From: Corallium rubrum
Lineage: Eukaryota; Cnidaria; Anthozoa; Scleralcyonacea; Coralliidae
Direction of reading: 5' to 3'
Assembly: GCA_964035015.1 (NCBI GenBank)
Contig: OZ036007.1
Coordinates: 13,000,141-13,064,140, forward strand
DNA length: 64,000 bases
Of this stretch, positions 13,262 through 57,630 are shown one piece after another. The translations under genes and the position numbers were made by a program. The number at the start of each line of letters is the position of its first letter. The stretch's first letter is position 1. Below the pieces are notes generated by a model. That model did not search any database. It saw only the letters and a list, made by a program, of their open reading frames with translations, and had not been told where the DNA came from.

Positions 13262-14770
<1,509 letters not shown>

Positions 14771-14772
14771 TC

Positions 14773-14956
14773 TCAGAGAGGGAGAGAAAGGGAGAGAGAG
14801 GGAGAGAGAGGGAGAGAGAGGGAGAGAGAGGGAGAGAGAGGGAGAGAGAGGGAGAGAGAGGGAGAGAGAGGGAGAGAGAGGGAGAGAGAGGAGAGAGAGA
14901 GAGAGGGAGAGAGAGGGAGAGAGAGGGAGAGAGAGGGAGAGAGAGGGAGAGAGGGA
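14773..14956. repeat. (GGGAGAGA)n microsatellite
   Basis: Regular 8-bp array with one off-register point near 14889. The Arg/Glu/Gly and Leu/Ser/Pro frames are artefacts. Confidence 0.95.
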
Positions 14957-15150
14957 TTGTATATTGCCATCATGCATGTATATAGAATATGTATAGGTCC
15001 CCCTGTGCAGTGACCTTTTTTCTGGCAGATTTTTTAAATTGGTTACTGTAACGAGAAGACGATCAAGCTCAAGGAAGCGCAGAATGTATATATGCGGCTA
15101 TATTCAACGGTTCAATCCTAGATTAAAATATTAAGATAAATTACTTTTAC

Positions 15151-15466
15151 CTGCTGAAACGCAATTGGCAACATGTCATAATAAGAACAACCTTCTAATG
15201 TCCTTAATGCTGATGGAGCTTCAAATTGATGGGAGGAAACCAGCTGGCATCCTGTGTTGACACACATCTGGAATGTCACGCAAAGACAGTCCTTGAGACA
15301 CGCAAAGAAACATTCCACGATGGTTTTCATCGTCAGGTTACGAAATGCGTGTCCATAAAGAGCTTTGTCTTTCAAGGCTTTTTCGAAGTCCACCTCGTAT
15401 TGTGTCTGCACCAGAACATAAAGTCCAATCGTTAGTAATACCACGACAGCTGCCTTTAAAACGAAT
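15151..15466 (-). CDS. gene copy A, PAN/apple-like exon with N-terminal hydrophobic segment
   Basis: A 316-bp exon between an acceptor (gtttgttttag) at 15467-15468 and a donor (CAG|gtaaaa) at 15150. It ends in phase 0, which matches the phase-0 start of the EGF exon at 9806. It encodes a hydrophobic helix (AAVVVLLTIGLYVLV), a signal anchor or signal peptide, followed by a cysteine-rich PAN/apple-like region (ECFFACLKDCLC, FQMC, TGCQL, EGCSYYD). The same acceptor and donor are kept in copy B, where the DNA just upstream is not open. This supports the exon start chosen here over the longer open frame to 15555. A first coding exon with the ATG must lie upstream and is not identified. The product is probably a membrane or secreted binding protein. 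Confidence 0.7.
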
Positions 15467-15914
15467 CTAAAACAAACGTTTGTTGTTAGCGCTTCCGAAT
15501 TTTGTCGTGCGCGCTCGATTCTGTTTTTAATATAATCATTATAATAGGGGTGCAAAAAGAAATTCAGCGAGCGTGAGATCTGGATAAAGGGATATTGGAC
15601 GAGTTGAATCTCGCTTTCGGACCGAAGATAAATTATTATATAGTACAGCCCATGTTTATATAACCAATATAGTGAAATAAAAGTAACGTGTTGCGTAGGC
15701 AGTGTTGAAACAACAATCGAAAATATAGTAGGGTTTGGGTTTGATATAATAATAATAATGGAAACTTTATTAAATGTTTTTCTTTTCTACATATACAATT
15801 ATAAATCTCGCTTATTAAGGTGATTTACAATTGGCTACTTGAATCACAACTAATAATATATAATAACAACTGATGACTAATGACTATATAATAAAACATG
15901 CAAATTTATACACA

Positions 15915-16205
15915 AATATTTCAAAAAGCTAATAATTCGGGATTTCCCCATTCCTTATTTCGGCAGCAGAAAATGTAGTACGTATAGTTCTGATAGCTAT
16001 AGTCATCATTTTCCTTACGCAGTACATTTGGTGCTTGTTATCAAGACCAACCTTATCTAGCATATCTAAAAAAGTAGAACACTCATTCGCAAAAACACCT
16101 AGGGAACTCATGGAGAGATTTATAAATTTTACATCATTAAAATGTTCACTTTGCTGTTTTACTAGTTCACTATATTTATCTTCTTTCCGTTGAATCCAGG
16201 TAGAT
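15915..16205 (-). pseudogene. retroelement protein scrap (copy 1)
   Basis: The minus strand reads INLSMSSLGVFANECSTFLDML, then HQMYCVRKMMTIAIRT, and in a shifted frame CCRNKEWGNPE. This is a conserved segment seen in cnidarian retroelement ORFs near a reverse transcriptase. At least one frameshift is present. Class identification is from memory of the family and is tentative. Confidence 0.4.
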
Positions 16206-16286
16206 CGACAAAGAGGTTTGAACCGTTAACAGTTTGTAAGGTATTTGCAAGAAAGTTAAGAATTGAATTGTGCCTCCTCCTTCATA

Positions 16287-16287
<1 letters not shown>

Positions 16288-16349
<62 letters not shown>

Positions 16350-16350
16350 T
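16288..16350. repeat. (TAA)n microsatellite
   Basis: About 60 bp of TAA repeats. The counterpart at 20586-20678 is about 30 bp longer, which explains the change in offset between the duplication copies. Confidence 0.95.
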
Positions 16351-16394
16351 TTAAAATATAGTCATTATTTACAAATTGTAAGATAAATAATTCC

Positions 16395-17050
16395 ATTGCT
16401 AATAATGGTTATAATAATATCAATAGTTAGTGTGTTCTAGAAACGGTAATAGAGTTCTTCAGGTTAATTCATTCCATAGCATTGGGGCGGTAACGGAAAA
16501 GGCTCTCATTCCATATGTCTTTAGATTGTATTTGGATACCACTAAGAGTCCTTTGCTAATTGAGCGTAATGGTCTAGCAGGTGTATATGGGGCTAAGATA
16601 TCCCGAAGATACAATGGGGCCATGCCGTGGAGTGCCTTAAATGTCAGTATTAAAATCTTAAAAACAATCCTTTCTTTTTTTAAACAACTTTATTTAACGA
16701 GGGTAATAACACATAACAGTTTGGTAGTAAACTGATAAACTTGTGGCACTCTAATTGGGAGCCAGTGGAGGTCTTTCAGGATGGGTGTAATATGTTCAAA
16801 TTTTCTAGTATAAGTAAGAAGTCGTGCTGCTGAGTTTTGCACGTATTGAAGCTTTTGTAAAAGATGTTGTGGTAGCCGGCCGGTTAATAACGAGTAGAGT
16901 TACAATAATCTAATGTCGTAGTAACAAAAGCATGGATTAAAATTTCACAGTGTTGATACGACAGAAATTTTCTTACAGTAGCAATATTTCTGTGGTGGTA
17001 GAAAGCTGTTTTGTAGATCATCAAATTCACTTGTTTGTTCATAGATCGTC
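16395..17050 (-). pseudogene. RTE/CR1-type reverse-transcriptase C-terminal fragment (copy 1)
   Basis: The minus strand reads, across frames, LPQHLLQKLQYVQNSAARLL, HITPILKDLHWLPI, ALHGMAPLYLRDIL and MRAFSVTAPMLWNELT, followed by a stop. This is the standard C-terminal region of many animal LINE RTs. Several frameshifts and an internal stop make it a relic. The plus-strand open frame at 16430-16735 is its shadow. Confidence 0.7.
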
Positions 17051-17247
17051 AAACCACACCCCAATGTTTTTAGCAGAATCAGATGCCTGAATCAACTCCG
17101 TGCCAGCATAGATACATTTCAGTGGTGGTGATGGTCGACGGTGGGCGTTTAGCAATTTCCTATAGTGTTCTCATTTATACGATCGACCTTTGGCAATTCT
17201 GAATTCAAGCTATACTATATGTACGCATGTACATTGTACAACAGAAC

Positions 17248-17310
<63 letters not shown>
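17248..17310. repeat. (TTA)n microsatellite
   Basis: About 60 bp. The counterpart at 21576-21650 is slightly longer. Poly-Ile, poly-Leu and poly-Tyr frames across it are artefacts. Confidence 0.95.
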
Positions 17311-17485
17311 CAACAATCTTTATACAGATTATTTCTTGTTCAGTATACGAGGTGCATATTGTATATATATATATATATATATCAATAAGATTAATTAAAT
17401 AGCTTTTAAAATTTTTCGCAAGATTAATTGTTCCTTGGGGTTAAGATGTATAGCTTTCGTCCGTTTAAACAGCTTGGATCAATGT

Positions 17486-19063
<1,578 letters not shown>

Positions 19064-19065
19064 TC

Positions 19066-19252
19066 TCAGAGAGGGAGAGAAAGGGAGAGAGAGGGAGAGA
19101 GAGGGAGAGAGAGGGAGAGAGAGGGAGAGAGAGGGAGAGAGAGGGAGAGAGAGGGAGAGAGAGGGAGAGAGAGGGAGAGAGAGGGAGAGAGAGGGAGAGA
19201 GAGGGAGAGAGAGGGAGAGAGAGGGAGAGAGAGGGAGAGAGAGGGAGAGAGG
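19066..19252. repeat. (GGGAGAGA)n microsatellite in duplication copy 2
   Basis: Perfectly regular counterpart of the array at 14773-14956, without its off-register point. Confidence 0.95.
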
Positions 19253-19448
19253 GATTGTATATTGCCATCATGCATGTATATAGAATATGTATAGGTCCCC
19301 CTGTGCAGTGACCTTTTTTCTGGCAGATTTTTTAAATTGGTTACTGTAACGAGAAGACGATCAAGCTCAAGGAAGCGCAGAATGTATATATGCGGCTATA
19401 TTCAACGGTTCAATCCTAGATTAAAATATTAAGATAAATTACTTTTAC

Positions 19449-19764
19449 CTGCTGAAACGCAATTGGCAACATGTCATAATAAGAACAACCTTCTAATGTC
19501 CTTAATGCTGATGGAGCTTCAAATTGATGGGAGGAAACCAGCTGGCATCCTGTGTTGACACACATCTGGAATGTCACGCAAAGACAGTCCTTGAGACACG
19601 CAAAGAAACATTCCACGATGGTTTTCATCGTCAGGTTACGAAATGCGTGTCCATAAAGAGCTTTGTCTTTCAAGGCTTTTTCGAAGTCCACCTCGTATTG
19701 TGTCTGCACCAGAACATAAAGTCCAATCGTTAGTAATACCACGACAGCTGCCTTTAAAACGAAT
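19449..19764 (-). CDS. duplicate PAN/apple-like exon (duplication copy 2)
   Basis: Identical in structure to 15151-15466, with acceptor at 19765-19766, donor at 19448, the same hydrophobic helix and the same cysteine pattern. If the tandem duplication is real, gene copy A has two PAN exons in series. The exon is 316 bp with asymmetric phase (phase 0 at the donor, one extra base at the acceptor), so splicing both exons together would break the frame. Only one can be used per transcript. Confidence 0.65.
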
Positions 19765-20212
19765 CTAAAACAAACGTTTGTTGTTAGCGCTTCCGAATTT
19801 TGTCGTGCGCGCTCGATTCTGTTTTTAATATAATCATTATAATAGGGGTGCAAAAAGAAATTCAGCGAGCGTGAGATCTGGATAAAGGGATATTGGACGA
19901 GTTGAATCTCGCTTTCGGACCGAAGATAAATTATTATATAGTACAGCCCATGTTTATATAACCAATATAGTGAAATAAAAGTAACGTGTTGCGTAGGCAG
20001 TGTTGAAACAACAATCGAAAATATAGTAGGGTTTGGGTTTGATATAATAATAATAATGGAAACTTTATTAAATGTTTTTCTTTTCTACATATACAATTAT
20101 AAATCTCGCTTATTAAGGTGATTTACAATTGGCTACTTGAATCACAACTAATAATATATAATAACAACTGATGACTAATGACTATATAATAAAACATGCA
20201 AATTTATACACA

Positions 20213-25370: not shown

Positions 25371-25838
25371 CAACCTCGTCCCCAGGGCATTTTGCCTCCA
25401 CGTTGGGAGTTGGCGAAAATGGCCCTGGCATCGGCTGGTCACGTGACACCCAGAATATTGGGGTGTTTTGGCAAGAAAATTTATGCGGTCTTTGTGTTTC
25501 GTTTTTGTATAATACGTATACATGAATAATAAATAAGAAATATTTAACGCTCTGCCGAATCACTCATGTGAACCTTTATCATAAATGCAACTGGCTAGCA
25601 TTATTCATCATGATACTCCCCGCGATTATCCAGGATACATTTAAATGTCGGGAAGAAACATATATCTAATGTTGTTCTTGACTTTAACCAAAGCTATCGT
25701 TACAATTCTTTGGATGAACTTCGCAGAGTGGATTTATTGCAATTCATATTTTGATGAATAAATTACACTGTATCGGAATTAATCAAGTTTTTAAACCGGC
25801 CAATCCGATTATAAAATCGACCAACCGATGCCAGGGCA
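25371..25838. mobile_element. MULE-like MITE, copy 1 (right end truncated)
   Basis: Starts CAACCTCGTCCCCAGGGC and contains the same interior as 52607-53127 but in the opposite orientation. The right terminal repeat stops after 'ccgatgccaggg', losing about 50 bp that are present in the complete copy. No target duplication is therefore visible here. Confidence 0.7.
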
Positions 25839-51625: not shown

Positions 51626-51794
51626 ATAAATCAGTGCAAAAATTAATATCGATGGATAATTAGTTTATCCATTACATCCAGTCACGCGCCATGGTCACGC
51701 GACTGAATATGCGAGTAATGCGACAATTTGTGCTTGAGGCGGCGTGGCGAATTCAACAAAACACACACGGAAACATACGGTGGCCCACAAGCGC

Positions 51795-52525
51795 AAAACA
51801 CAATACACACAACGAAAACACAATACACACAGCGAAAACACAATACACACAACGAAAACACAATACACACAGCGCAAAACACAATACACAAAACGAAAAC
51901 ACAATACACACAGCGAAAACACAATACACACAACGAAAACACAATACACACAGCGAAAACACAATACACACAACGAAAACACAATACACACAGCGAAAAC
52001 ACAATACACACAGCGAAAACACAATACACACAACGGAAACACAATACACACAGCAAAAACACAATACACACAACGAAAACACAATACACACAGCGAAAAC
52101 ACAATACACACAGCGAAAACACAATACACACAACGAAAACACAACGAAAACACAATACACACAGCGAAAACACAATACACACAACGAAAACACAATACAC
52201 ACAGCGAAAACACAATACACACAGCGAAAACACAATACACACAACGAAAACACAATACACACAGCGAAAACACAATACACACAGTGAAAACACAATACAC
52301 ACAGCGAAAACACAATACACACAGCGAAAACACAATACACACAACGAAAACACAATATACACAGCGAAAACACAATACACACAACGAAAACACAATACAC
52401 ACAGCGAAAACACAATACACACTTCCAAAACACAATACACACAACGAAAACACAATACGCACAGCAAAAACACAATACACAGTGCCAAAACACAACACAC
52501 ACAGCGAAAACACAACACACAAAAG
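51795..52525. repeat. 20-bp minisatellite, left arm
   Basis: About 36 units of CACAATACACACA(G/A)CGAAAA. Because 20 is not a multiple of three and the unit lacks stops in several frames, open frames of 200-290 codons arise on both strands. They are not genes. Confidence 0.95.
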
Positions 52526-52606
52526 AAATGGTTAGCGGATTTCGCCGCCAAATTGTGCAATACGTCGTGTTAGCGAGTCTACAAAGACTTGCGCTATGAT
52601 AAATGT

Positions 52607-53127
52607 CAACCTCGTCCCCAGGGCATTTTGCCTCCACGTTGGGAGGTCGGCGAAAATGGCCCTGGCATCGACTGGTCGATTCTATAATCGGATTGGCCGG
52701 TTTAAAAACTTGATTAATTCAGATACAGTGTAATTTATTCATCAAAATATGAATTGCAATAAATCCACTCTGCGAAGTTCATCCAAAGAATTGTAACGAT
52801 TGCTTTGGTTAAAGTCAAGAACAACATTAGATATATGTTTCTTCCGACATTTGAATGTATCCTGGATAATCGTGGCGACTAGTATCATGATCAATAATGC
52901 TAGCCAGTTGCATTTATGATAAAGGTTCACATGAGTGATTCGGCAGTGGGTTAAATATTTCTCATTTATTATTCATGTATACGTATTATACAAAAACGAA
53001 ACATAAAGACCGCATAAATTTTCTTGCCAAAACACCCCAAAATACTGGGTGTCACGTGACCAGCCGATGCCAGGGCCATTTTCGCCGACTCCCAACGTGG
53101 AGGCAAAATGCCCTGGGGACGAGGTTG
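52607..53127. mobile_element. 521-bp MULE-like MITE, complete copy, in left arm of the foldback
   Basis: TIRs of about 70 bp beginning CAACCTCGTCCCCAGGGC, flanked by the 9-bp repeat GATAAATGT (52598-52606 and 53128-53136). The opposite arm of the foldback (about 55125-55165) lacks it and shows the unoccupied site. It is the same family as 25371-25838. Confidence 0.88.
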
Positions 53128-53212
53128 GATAAATGTCTTTTCGTCGCCAAAACGGAACAATAATACTTATGATCAGATATATAACACTGGTCTTAACTTC
53201 GCTTTTTCAAGG

Positions 53213-53825
53213 CAGGCAGGTAGGACGGACGGAGGGAGGGAGGGACGGACGGAGGGACGGTACGGAAAGACAGACGGAAGGGCGGACGGACGGACGGATG
53301 GAAGGGAGGACGGACGGACGGAAGGAAGGAAGGAAGGAAGGAAGGAAGGAAGGAAGGAAGGAAGGAAGGAAGGAAGGAAGGAAGGAAGGACGGACGGACG
53401 GAAGGACCGATGGAAGGAAGGACGGACGGAAGGAAGGACGGATGGACGGAATTAGGAAGGACGGACGGAAGGACGGACGGACGGACGGAAGGACGGAGGC
53501 GGGGATGAAGGGAGGGCAGGACGGACGGAGGGAGGGCAGGACGGACGGAGGGAGGGAGGGACGGACGGATCCACTGACGTTGCCACGGACGGACGGACGG
53601 ACAGAGGGAGGACGGGACGGAAGGATGGACGGAGGGACGGAGAGAGGGAGGGACGGAAGGAAGGGACGGAGGGAGGAAGGGATGGAGGGAGGGAAGAAGG
53701 GAGGGAGGGAGGGAGGGAGGAAGGCAAGAAGGAAGGAAGGAAGGAAGGAAGGAAGGAAGGAAGGAAGGAAGGAAGGAAGGAAGGAAGGAAGGAAGGAAGG
53801 AGGGAGGGAGGGAGGGAGGTAGCAA
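53213..53825. repeat. GGAC/GGAA/GGGA purine tetranucleotide array, left arm
   Basis: About 610 bp of nearly pure G/A with C only in GGAC units. A short unique marker, 'ccactgacgttgccac' (53570-53585), recurs inverted in the other arm. The Arg/Lys/Gly and Pro/Ser frames are artefacts. Confidence 0.95.
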
Positions 53826-53939
53826 GCGAGGACCGAGAACGTAGAACTTAGATCTTCGTAGCTTTCTTGGGCGTGAACGTTATTGCGTACCTTCCTTTCT
53901 ACGTTCCTCCCTACGTTCCTACCCTTCTTCCTTCCTCCC

Positions 53940-55058
53940 TTAATTCTTACCGTCCTTCCTTCCTTCCTTCCTTCCTTTCTTCCTTCCTTCCTTCCTTCCT
54001 TCCTTCCTTCCTTCCTTCCTTCCTTCCTTCCTTCCTTCCTTCGTTCCTTCCTTCCTTCCTCCGTCCCTGCCTCCGTCCATCCGCCTCTCCGTCCATCCGT
54101 CCGTCCCTCCGCCCGATCCGTCCCCGTCCGTCCGTCCGTCCGTCCCTCCGTCCGTCCTGCCCTCCCTCCGTCCCCGCTTTCCGTCCTTCCGTCTGTCCCA
54201 TGCACCTCCCCTCCCTCCGTCCGTCCGTCCGATTGCCCGTCCCTCCATCCGTCCGTCCGTCCGTCCCTCCCTCCTTCCCTTCCTTCCTCCCTCCCTCCCT
54301 CCCTCCGTCCTGCCTTCCGTCCGTCCTTCCGTCCTGTCCCTCCGCCCTTTCCTCCGTCCGTCCTTTCTGCCTGCCTTGAAAAGCAAAGTTAAGACCATGC
54401 AGTGTTATATATCTCATCCTAAGCAGTGTTATATATCTCATCCGTCCGCCCTGCCCTCCCTCAGTCCCCACCTCCGTCCTTCCGAGTTCCGTCCGTCCCG
54501 CCTTCCCTCCGTCCGTCCCTCCGTCCGTCCGTCCCGTCCTGCCCTCCCTCCCTCCGTTACCACCTCCGTCCGTCCGTCCGTCCGTCCGTCCTTCCGTCCC
54601 TCCCTCTCTCCGTCCATTCTTCCGTCCCGCTCTCTCTCCGTCCGTCCGTCCGTCCGTCCGTCCGTGGCAACGTCAGTGGCTCCGTCCCTCCCTCCGTCCG
54701 TCCGTCCTGCCCTCCCTCCGTCCCCGCCTCCGTCCTTCCTTCCGTCCGTCCCGCCTTCCCTCCGTCCGTCCCTCTGTCCGTCCCTCCCATCCTGCCCTCC
54801 CTCCCTCCGTTACCACCTCCGTCCGTCCGTCCGTCCGTCCGTCCTTCCGTCCCTCCCTCTCTCCGTCCACCCTTCCGTCCCGCTCTCCCTCCGTTCGTCC
54901 GTCCGTCCGTGGCAACGTCAGTGGCTCCGTCCCTCCCTCCGTCCGTCCGTCCTGCCCTCCCTCCGATCCGTCCCCGCCTCCGTCCTTCCTTCCGTCCGTC
55001 CCTCCGCCCGATCCGTCCCTCCGCCCCTCCCTCCCTCCCTCCCTCCGTCCTTCCTGCC
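53940..55058. repeat. CCGT/CCTT/CCCT pyrimidine array, right arm
   Basis: Complementary counterpart of 53213-53825, longer by internal duplication. 'gtggcaacgtcagtggc' occurs twice (about 54663 and 54908), and a short piece of unique arm sequence (gcgaagttaag-like, tatatatct) is stranded at 54377-54442. These show rearrangement within the arm. Confidence 0.95.
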
Positions 55059-55214
55059 TGCCTTGAAAAAGCGAAGTTAAGACCAGCGTTATATATCTGA
55101 TCATAAGTATTATTGTTCCATTTTGGCGCGACCATAAAAGACATTTGACATCGCAAGTCTTTGTAGACTCGCTAACACGACGTATTGCACAATTTGGCGA
55201 CGAAACCCGCTGAC

Positions 55215-55680
55215 CATTTTTGTGTGTGTTGTGTTTTCGCTGTGTGTGTTGTGTTTTCGCTGTGTGTGTTGTGTTTTCGCTGTGTGTGTTGTGTTTTGGC
55301 AGTGTGTGTTGTGTTTTCGCTATGTGTATTGTGTTTTCGTTGTGTGTATTGTGTTTTCGTTGTGTGTATTGTGTTTTGGTAGTGTGTATTGTGTTTTCGC
55401 TGTGTGTATTGTGTTTTGCACTTATGGGCCACCGTAGTGTATTGTATTTTCGCTGTGTGTATTGTGTTTTCGTTGTGTGTATTGTGTTTTCGCTGTGTGT
55501 ATTGTGTTTTCGTTGTGTGTATTGTGTTTTCGCTGTGTGTATTGTGTTTTCGCTGTGTGTATTGTGTTTTTGTTGTGCGGTATTGTGTTTCGCTGAGTGT
55601 ATTGTGTTTTCGTTGTGTGTACTGTGTTTTCGCTGTGTGTATTGTGTTTCCGTTGTGTGTATTGTGTTTTGCACTTGTGG
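55215..55680. repeat. 20-bp minisatellite, right arm
   Basis: Complement of the left-arm array, about 23 units. An extra copy of the element's terminus (gcacttatgggccaccgta, 55419-55437) lies inside it, so the outer part of this arm has been duplicated. Confidence 0.95.
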
Positions 55681-55887
55681 GCCACCGTAGAAACAAGCAA
55701 ACAAGTCAAGTTTGTTTTAAATATCTTTATCTGGGAAATATAATCGCAAGATTAAATTTAAATAACGATGAAAAAAGATTAACAAATCAAGAAAACTTAT
55801 TGTCGTAACTGGCTTAAAACATTCGTATAAAACTCAAAGTTATTTGAAAAATATATTACGGCTGTTCGATCAAAGTGTCAACAAAAC

Positions 55888-57365
55888 TTAGCCTTCTTCA
55901 TCGCTTTCAATCACAAGTCTTCGTCGCTTTTTCTCTTGGAATATCTTCACTGGACCATTGAAAATCTGGAATTGACACCCTGAGATGCTGCTTATACTTG
56001 CACCAGCGAAAACTGCTTGGCTGTTTGAATCTTCCTGGTATGAATGTGTTGCTTCGAAATGCTGCAGCTGGCCGAGCTGGATTTCCGACTGGGACGTATC
56101 AACTGGCTCACGTATCGCTGGTTGTAAATTTTCAAGAGGATTAAGTGCTCTTCTTGGTTGGTTTTGTGCTGATGGTTGAGTTCCGCTGAGTATACTGGAC
56201 ATCTGAAGCTGATGTTGTTCGCTTGCTGATTTATACGACTGTAGACTTTGCAGGTTCTTGTGTCCACTCAGCTGGGCCACAAAGATTTTGGGAGTGTTGG
56301 CGTCTAATAGCCTCGAGATACTGGTTTTTCTAACAGAATGGTTACTTAATTTCCCCCCGGCTCGCTGAAGACTAGCATTTTCTGCTGCTTTGCTGACGAA
56401 CTTGCCAATTTCATTCTTACCCAGAGGAGATTTCATATACCAAATGTTGTTGTTTTGATGGCGGTTCCCATGTCTGACAGCAAGGAAAAACGGCGCGTCT
56501 GCTGTATTCATTTCGACTGGACGATAGCTCTTGAAGATTTTATAGTATTCAACAGGGCATCTTTCTGATCCGGTGGCATAAATCTTCGGTTGAAATGATC
56601 TTTGGTGACCGTTTTCTTGACCTCTACGTGTTTTCGTGCCACGCTCACAGCCTCACATAGCCAGACGAGCATTTCGCGACCATCAATATTGGTTTCGAGT
56701 TGAATATCGCCCCAACGCAACTTACGGCTTTCGCCTCTCGCCCTGAAGCCAAAATGGAGTGCCACAAACCACCACATGGTTCTCTGGAGGACTTCTGGTC
56801 CAGACATACCAAACTGTCCGCATTCAAACAGTTTGTCCTCTTCTTCTTGCGTGAGAACGCGAGTAGCATTTGGCTTGTTTCCCGTGCCGGCTTTGTTTAC
56901 CAAACTTTTTCGTTTCGCTGCAAGGACTTCGCGGGATATCTTAAACTCTTTGTCTATCAGGATGTTAAACTGGGATTTGTTGTCGGAAAGGAACCGCTGA
57001 ATACTCCTTTGGAAACTTGAAATCGTGTCCGGTTCGTACTCTTCTCCATTTATTTTACGGATATCTTTGAAAAATTTGGGCAACAAGTGGTCAAGCTCCT
57101 GTACTGGTAAGTGCAAAATGTTTAGATGTTGTTTGTTTATTTCAGCTAGGTATCGGTTGAATGCATTCATGTCGCTTGCTGTTTTTTTTACCGTATTTAC
57201 GCTTTTCTGCTCTCTTATAAAACTGTCAATTTCTTCCTGGCTGTTTCGCTGCTCGTAGACGTCGTCGCTCTGTACTTCGTGAAACTGATAAAAATTACTT
57301 TCGTATTCTTCATTTTCAACTTCTGGATAATAAAACTCGCTCTCAGAATGCACCTCGTCGCTCAT
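55888..57365 (-). pseudogene. Crypton/KIAA1958-like tyrosine recombinase, frameshifted
   Basis: Minus-strand gene starting at ATG 57365 (MSDEVHSE). The N-terminal acidic region is followed by a core-binding-like domain (TASDMNAFNRYL; SFQRSIQRFL), a TQEEEDKLF segment, and the catalytic domain: first Arg in ALHFGFRARGE, then HxxR in NHSVRKTSISRLL and the SGHKNLQSLQSYK segment with His and candidate nucleophile Tyr. The C-terminal tail is Gln/Ser-rich and ends in RRRL and acidic residues. The frame changes in the middle because of an 8-bp near-duplication (CTCACAGC 56644-56651 beside CTCACATA); in the shifted frame the sequence runs GHQRSFQPKIY then ERCPVEYYK and continues in frame into NTADAPFFL. 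The length of about 490 residues fits intronless Crypton-type recombinases. It would cut and rejoin DNA without a DDE enzyme. Confidence 0.8.
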
Positions 57366-57630
57366 TTTAATAAATTTCTACTTCTTGTAAGTACAATTTA
57401 TTGAATTTTAAAGTTTTTGCTATTGTTTTCCTCGCACGGCAATAAAAATTCCGTATTGCCCACGGGCGATACGGGAAACTCCTGCCACGTCAGTAGCCAA
57501 TCAAATTGCGCGATTCACCAAAACAAATGCTTGCCATATAATCCCCGAGAAAATATCAAAACTTCACAATCATTGGAAAGAAGTGTAAAATATAACCCTA
57601 ATATTTTGACAAAATTTTACCGCCTGCCTC
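57366..57630. promoter_or_regulatory. upstream region of the tyrosine recombinase
   Basis: Non-coding sequence that should hold the recombinase promoter (minus-strand sense). It includes 'gccaatcaaattgcgcg' near 57493, a CCAAT-like word. No TATA position can be fixed. Confidence 0.3.

Follow-up and report, generated by a model that had tools for sequence, protein, structure and literature searches.

Within a 64,000-nucleotide stretch of the Corallium rubrum genome (GenBank assembly GCA_964035015.1, contig OZ036007.1, forward-strand positions 13,000,141 to 13,064,140; hereafter the window, whose own numbering we use), a 3,914-bp foldback element at positions 51776 to 55689 (no strand assigned) is, with a probability of roughly 0.87, a non-autonomous member of the IS3EU/GingerRoot lineage. 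It is placed there by its ends, the length of its target site duplication, and the profile matches of its putative partner. Its ends and build recur in relatives, and coding elements that share the TACGGTGGCC end have 6-bp duplications, tandem-repeat arms, and a DDE transposase related to those of IS3 and IS481. Through these shared ends, that transposase can be assigned to the window element as its probable partner.

Fungal IS3EU elements are described with 6-bp duplications and TAYGG..CCRTA ends (PMC12730594), and IS3EU and GingerRoot are treated as a single lineage whose ends are TA..TA and whose duplications usually measure 6 bp, with 45 IS3EU families in Repbase in 2022 (PMC10045372). The window element and the two-ended coding elements have TACGG..CCGTA ends, and the 6-bp duplication is exact at three of five window-family sites and in three of four two-ended coding elements. 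At 469 and 488 bp, the inverted arms (88.8% identity) exceed the 30 bp given for the lineage, and the autonomous partner encodes a DDE transposase that matches the rva_4 profile and, below cut-offs, IS3 and IS481 models of NCBIfam. A preliminary description of this DNA, made from its letters alone, knew of no described superfamily with this build and took it as a possible undescribed family; the agreement of ends and duplication with what the available accounts of IS3EU/GingerRoot report (PMC12730594, PMC10045372), together with the IS3/IS481-like transposase of same-ended elements, speaks against that view.

The same description had recognized a 3.9-kb foldback unit whose arms combine a 20-bp minisatellite with purine/pyrimidine tetranucleotide arrays, and Tandem Repeats Finder (TRF) and alignment of the two arms confirm this architecture. 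The ends, reported as inverted copies, are exact 16-bp reverse complements: TACGGTGGCCCACAAG at 51776 to 51791 on the plus strand and its counterpart at 55674 to 55689 on the minus strand. Each arm runs inward from a 20-bp minisatellite through about 160 bp of unique sequence to an array of tetranucleotides, in which purines predominate on the left and pyrimidines on the right. TRF and splitting of the units give about 37 copies in the left minisatellite (51786 to 52521, plus strand), where ACACAGC and ACACAAC variants are mixed, and about 23 in the inverted right one (55221 to 55670, minus strand). Alignment with the right arm delimits an outer (52522 to 52606) and an inner (53128 to 53208) part of the left unique sequence, both on the plus strand, while the right unique sequence (55061 to 55220, minus strand) has 18 genome matches including the window's own. 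The purine-rich array (GGAA/GGAC/GGAG) occupies 53209 to 53817 on the plus strand. Its inverted partner, which TRF reports at 53890 to 55054, consists by TRF and composition of two pyrimidine-rich arrays on the minus strand (53890 to 54375 and 54446 to 55060) on either side of a second, internal copy of the inner arm sequence, defined by arm alignment (54376 to 54445, minus strand). The two arms are 88 to 90% alike. The characterization of an approximately 610-bp arm as nearly pure purine was too strong: purine content is 87.7% across 612 bp with a longest unbroken run of 94 bp, and the pyrimidine parts contain 87% and 81% pyrimidine with a longest run of 90 bp. Blocks of (GGAA)n/(TTCC)n are present, with mirror half-lengths of 32 to 36 bp. 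The arms could possibly fold into a cruciform, hairpin, or triplex, although the explanation given here does not need such folding. The unit has no recognized gene of its own; the open frames within it look by eye like translated repeats, no family search having been made on them.

The element lies between two plus-strand copies of GAAACA, at 51770 to 51775 and 55690 to 55695, as previously noted, within a Crypton-like repeat (55690 to 57377, minus strand) whose open reading frames carry QRICH1 and DUF3504/tyrosine-recombinase domains in Pfam. The right flank (55690 to 56100) matches 12 other sequences over nearly its full length, at 90 to 99% identity, and we fetched six of these across the junction. 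Five of these six host-repeat copies are uninterrupted with a single GAAACA and represent empty sites; in the sixth, a small deletion lies at the junction. Because these five copies are uninterrupted with one GAAACA, the 3,914 bp inserted together, with duplication of 6 bp, as the preliminary description had proposed for the whole mosaic. An artefactual inversion introduced in assembly from long reads is extremely improbable, since the arms diverge by at least about 10% and are unequal in length, and other loci share the build; foldback reads are a known long-read artefact, but a target duplication and empty sites also stand against this account. We considered the tyrosine-recombinase gene at 55888 to 57377 as the mobilizer and rejected it: the gene belongs to the host repeat, which at the empty sites lacks the foldback. 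Five ends of the Crypton-like host repeat also lie head to tail, at a spacing of exactly 2,167 bp, in a tandem array at G000:C30:4422727-4431807.

We searched the 474-Mb genome with a 31-letter end pattern, allowing two mismatches, with the reversed pattern as a control. The pattern gave 20 matches versus none for the control, which exceeds chance; 17 belong to the window family (three of them in the window itself) and three to a coding family. Within the right arm, a third copy of the terminus, in the CATAAG form and with one mismatch, lies at 55421 to 55436 on the minus strand and may be an older or duplicated right end; it matches the end pattern exactly at C28:13055546-13055576. The window family comprises about 12 loci. 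All five two-ended sites have minisatellite and tetranucleotide arms, and the three exact duplications are GAAACA (contig C28, the window), ATCGAG (C23), and TTTTTA (C56). At the C14/C13 site, one insertion found on two contigs and counted once, the duplication has five matching bases, and C8:11055199-11057503 has none. The preliminary description had asked whether 6-bp duplications recur and had named copies with unrelated ends or without a constant duplication as evidence against its proposal; recurrence stands for the three exact sites, and such contrary copies are on the whole not seen, the C8 site excepted. The count of five omits L062 (C23:6414125), a piece of 300 bp in which two sequences resemble the end but the flanks do not match, as well as one-ended copies at C39, C8:4006972, C15, and C237. 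No end was found at up to four mismatches at C1:12731548 (L067) or C18 (L072). A 7.3-kb copy at C13:12678629-12685910 was examined as a possible coding partner and set aside; its coding part looks by eye like a nested long interspersed nuclear element (LINE), and C14:340926-342851 represents the same insertion. LINE-like open reading frames, again judged by eye, are inserted in the repeat arrays of two window-family loci (L025:2747-7423 and L068:850-5317).

The preliminary description had also suggested looking for an autonomous transposase that shares these ends, and such elements are present. The family A element at C82:844170-850342 shares the 16-bp end and has a TAAAAC duplication. A 410-residue open frame in it encodes an integrase-type transposase, and its arms are built from a different 21-bp unit in 15 and 40 copies. 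Over the first 32 end bases, the window element matches family A at 30 (right end) and family N at 29, with an identical 28-base prefix in the latter; the arms of both families are without the window's 20-bp unit. Of seven coding loci tried, four yielded a far end, one each in families A, K, J, and N. The duplications of K (GGAATC) and J (AAGAAT), like that of A, are exact, and that of N (AGATCA/ATATCA) agrees at five of six bases. A piece beside one further coding locus, L032, encodes Bel/Pao-type retroelement domains.

The family A transposase matches the Pfam rva_4 integrase core at 6e-27, and in NCBIfam it matches only IS3 (1.3e-6) and IS481 (4.5e-5), both below curated cut-offs. The presumed catalytic residues D158, D217, and E258 are invariant in all 20 aligned proteins. 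An AlphaFold model (mean pLDDT 81, pTM 0.66) shows the strand and helix order of an RNase-H-like core, preceded by helical segments, and its top Foldseek matches are IstA, MuA, prototype foamy virus integrase, and TnsB, with low full-length TM-scores. The ends on which IstA, MuA, and TnsB act contain several sites, each about 20 bp long. A sequence search of the PDB with the transposase gave no match, while a protein search returned 1,352 relatives, with entries from Montipora, Xenia, and Dendronephthya among the 120 listed.

Some observations weigh against placing the window element in IS3EU/GingerRoot: the C8 site without a duplication; the lack of a far end for coding loci L032, L036, and L041 (three of the seven tried) in the sequence fetched; and the failure to find, among the best 30 loci examined (from 102 scored of 1,257 transposase candidates), any coding element whose arms use the 20-bp unit of the window element. 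The last of these, together with inner open frames that resemble translated repeats by eye, would fit an undescribed foldback superfamily moved by another transposase. We consider this very improbable, as the ends and duplication fit IS3EU and family A both agrees with the window at nearly all of its terminal bases and encodes a DDE transposase.

Other foldback-forming groups differ in duplication length. Galileo makes a 7-bp duplication and has other ends, the P superfamily makes 7- or 8-bp duplications, and the Foldback/MuDR type makes duplications of about 9 bp; the Drosophila Foldback (FB) and sea urchin TU elements have arms of short tandem repeats, with 8- to 9-bp duplications and other ends. 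At 6 bp, the window element was therefore excluded from both P/Galileo and FB/MULE on duplication length. Galileo, a Drosophila member of the P superfamily, resembles the window element in its long, internally repetitive inverted repeats (PMC3688188, PMC3573991), but is described with a P-type transposase bearing a THAP domain. Tetris, a foldback element of D. virilis, is likewise non-autonomous and modular with tandem repeats inside inverted repeats, although its units are about 220 bp long (PMC4079207) and the two are set side by side here by description only. The coral elements share with IS3EU/GingerRoot, as described, TA(C/T)GG..CC(G/A)TA ends, 6-bp duplications, an IS3/IS481-like DDE transposase, and a further gene in opposite orientation. 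They differ in their satellite-built arms, as the accessible parts of the published accounts give inverted repeats of >30 bp and no tandem arrays (PMC10045372, PMC12730594). The open-licence literature covered yielded no account of IS3EU elements with a HECT gene or with arms of tandem repeats; arms of this kind may be present in Repbase entries.

A second gene lies opposite to the transposase in the three coding families examined for it, A, J, and K (L026:3204-4648; L064:388-2343; L049:3251-4180 with L066:1-1242). The family A gene has a Pfam HECT match (1.4e-10). Those of J and K are 55% identical to each other and have no Pfam match, but among the 120 homologues listed, a HECT domain is precomputed for one, and one bears the name HECT domain-containing. 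The second gene thus appears HECT-like in the three coral families, weakly so in two, whereas the account of the fungal elements gives alpha-kinase and TET/JBP genes (PMC12730594). A ubiquitin-ligase-like protein carried by a transposon would merit study.

We examined those 30 best-scoring transposase loci, near-identical copies included, with 1.5-kb flanks (one shorter), tallying only arrays with a period of at least 8 and at least four copies. By unit, the loci were grouped by eye into about 16 families, the units of G and H being taken from arrays of two to three copies. The TACGGTGGCC end lies 5' of the transposase match in 30 of 30 loci, at a distance of 329 to 1,056 bp and with zero to one mismatch of 12; it was found 3' of the transposase in none (up to two mismatches, 1.5 kb). 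In 29 of 30 loci an array lies between this end and the gene, ending 59 to 436 bp upstream of the transposase match. Its period is 20 to 22 bp in 25 of these 29 and 17, 18, 18, and 26 bp in the other four. Elsewhere in these flanks, whether beyond the element or 3' of the gene, arrays with four or more copies have other periods, except for one AT-rich array of period 20. Unit sequences differ among families; read inward, C exceeds G in 16 of 17 units, with one tie. Each of the four two-ended coding elements (A, K, J, and N) has an array in either arm. Tandem-repeat arms are a general trait of the transposase loci sampled.

These arrays may provide multiple transposase-binding sites, because their period is about two helical turns, they show one strand polarity, they occur in both arms, helical segments precede the catalytic core in the transposase model, and the THAP domain of the Galileo transposase binds sites in the tandem repeats of its long arms, as demonstrated by experiment (PMC3688188). 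Under this proposal, a transposase made in trans by a TACGGTGGCC-ended coding element would recognize the conserved end and the repeats, pair the two arms, cut, and join with a 6-bp stagger. Each unit of about 20 to 22 bp would be one predicted binding site for helix-turn-helix regions preceding the catalytic core, and the arrays would thereby raise avidity. Unit copy number would drift by unequal exchange or slippage, and the arms would be homogenized by mutual pairing; the purine/pyrimidine arrays would be internal filler of the window family, dispensable for recognition. More generally, and at somewhat less than even odds, a whole lineage of anthozoan IS3EU elements may use arrays that are specific to each family, with units of about 21 bp that span two helical turns and have one strand polarity, as multisite transposase landing pads resembling the ends of Mu, Tn7, and IS21 but with tens of sites, each family having a matched transposase head and satellite.

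Several findings count against the binding-site proposal. HTH_21 matches in the J and K transposases are weak and below the Pfam cut-off, locus L045 (one of the 30) has only a two-copy array, and a family's own unit reaches the element end in only 6 of 17 families. Any shared motif is marginal, the 5-mers CACAA, ACACA, and ACAAA occurring in 9 of 17 units versus a shuffle 95% limit of 8. Two other readings of the arrays leave the IS3EU identity in place or give the arrays a different role. In the first, which we regard as somewhat unlikely, the arrays are neutral, hairpin arms and gap repair promoting slippage with no role in transposition. Copy numbers that vary widely between arms (15 and 40 in family A, 37 and 23 in the window), purine arrays that also look expanded, and units that vary by family would agree with it, but neutrality accounts poorly for end-side arrays at 29 of the 30 loci with a largely constant period, other periods prevailing elsewhere save for the AT-rich exception, or for the C over G polarity of the units. 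In the second, which we judge improbable, the arrays serve chiefly the transposase gene, as its promoter or regulatory repeats, and persist as relics in non-autonomous copies. This reading arises because the arrays end at the stated distance upstream of the transposase match, and their position 5' of the gene at nearly every locus is consistent with it; arrays also occur, however, in the gene-distant arm of the four two-ended coding elements and in noncoding copies.

Beyond anthozoans, the exact 16-mer end is present in 16 viral-contig stretches, and a transposase profile search of viral contigs found no relative. The same search of genome contigs gave two. L079 has no end at up to two mismatches and no 16- to 26-bp array, whereas L080:268-3430, on a contig in a sponge-symbiont bin, codes for an rva_4 relative and has both a TACGGTGGCCGA end and, 3' of the gene, an 18-bp array, a hint only that the array trait may reach beyond anthozoans.

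The left arm of the window element is split by a nested element at 52607 to 53127 (no strand assigned), which is outside the foldback proper and has CAACC..GGTTG ends and a 9-bp GATAAATGT duplication. A stretch of 469 bp within it is 95.7% identical to a partial second copy at 25371 to 25837 of the window. The nested element may have arrived after the foldback or been carried along inside it. Elsewhere in the window, open reading frames of 152 and 222 amino acids each occur twice in identical form, about 4.3 kb apart (13831 to 14289 and 18124 to 18582; 15118 to 15786 and 19416 to 20084), which suggests that 13831 to 20084 was recently duplicated in tandem or was duplicated in the assembly.

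Foldback elements have been classed by their unusual arms rather than by their enzyme; here, the arms are tied to a transposase group. The roughly 16 families in one genome offer a natural series in which unit sequence can be set against transposase sequence, so that the purpose of minisatellite arms becomes testable. The association also suggests that transposons can seed minisatellites directly, and if the landing-pad proposal is true, satellite DNA would be born as a functional part of a transposon and left as minisatellites once the elements decay.

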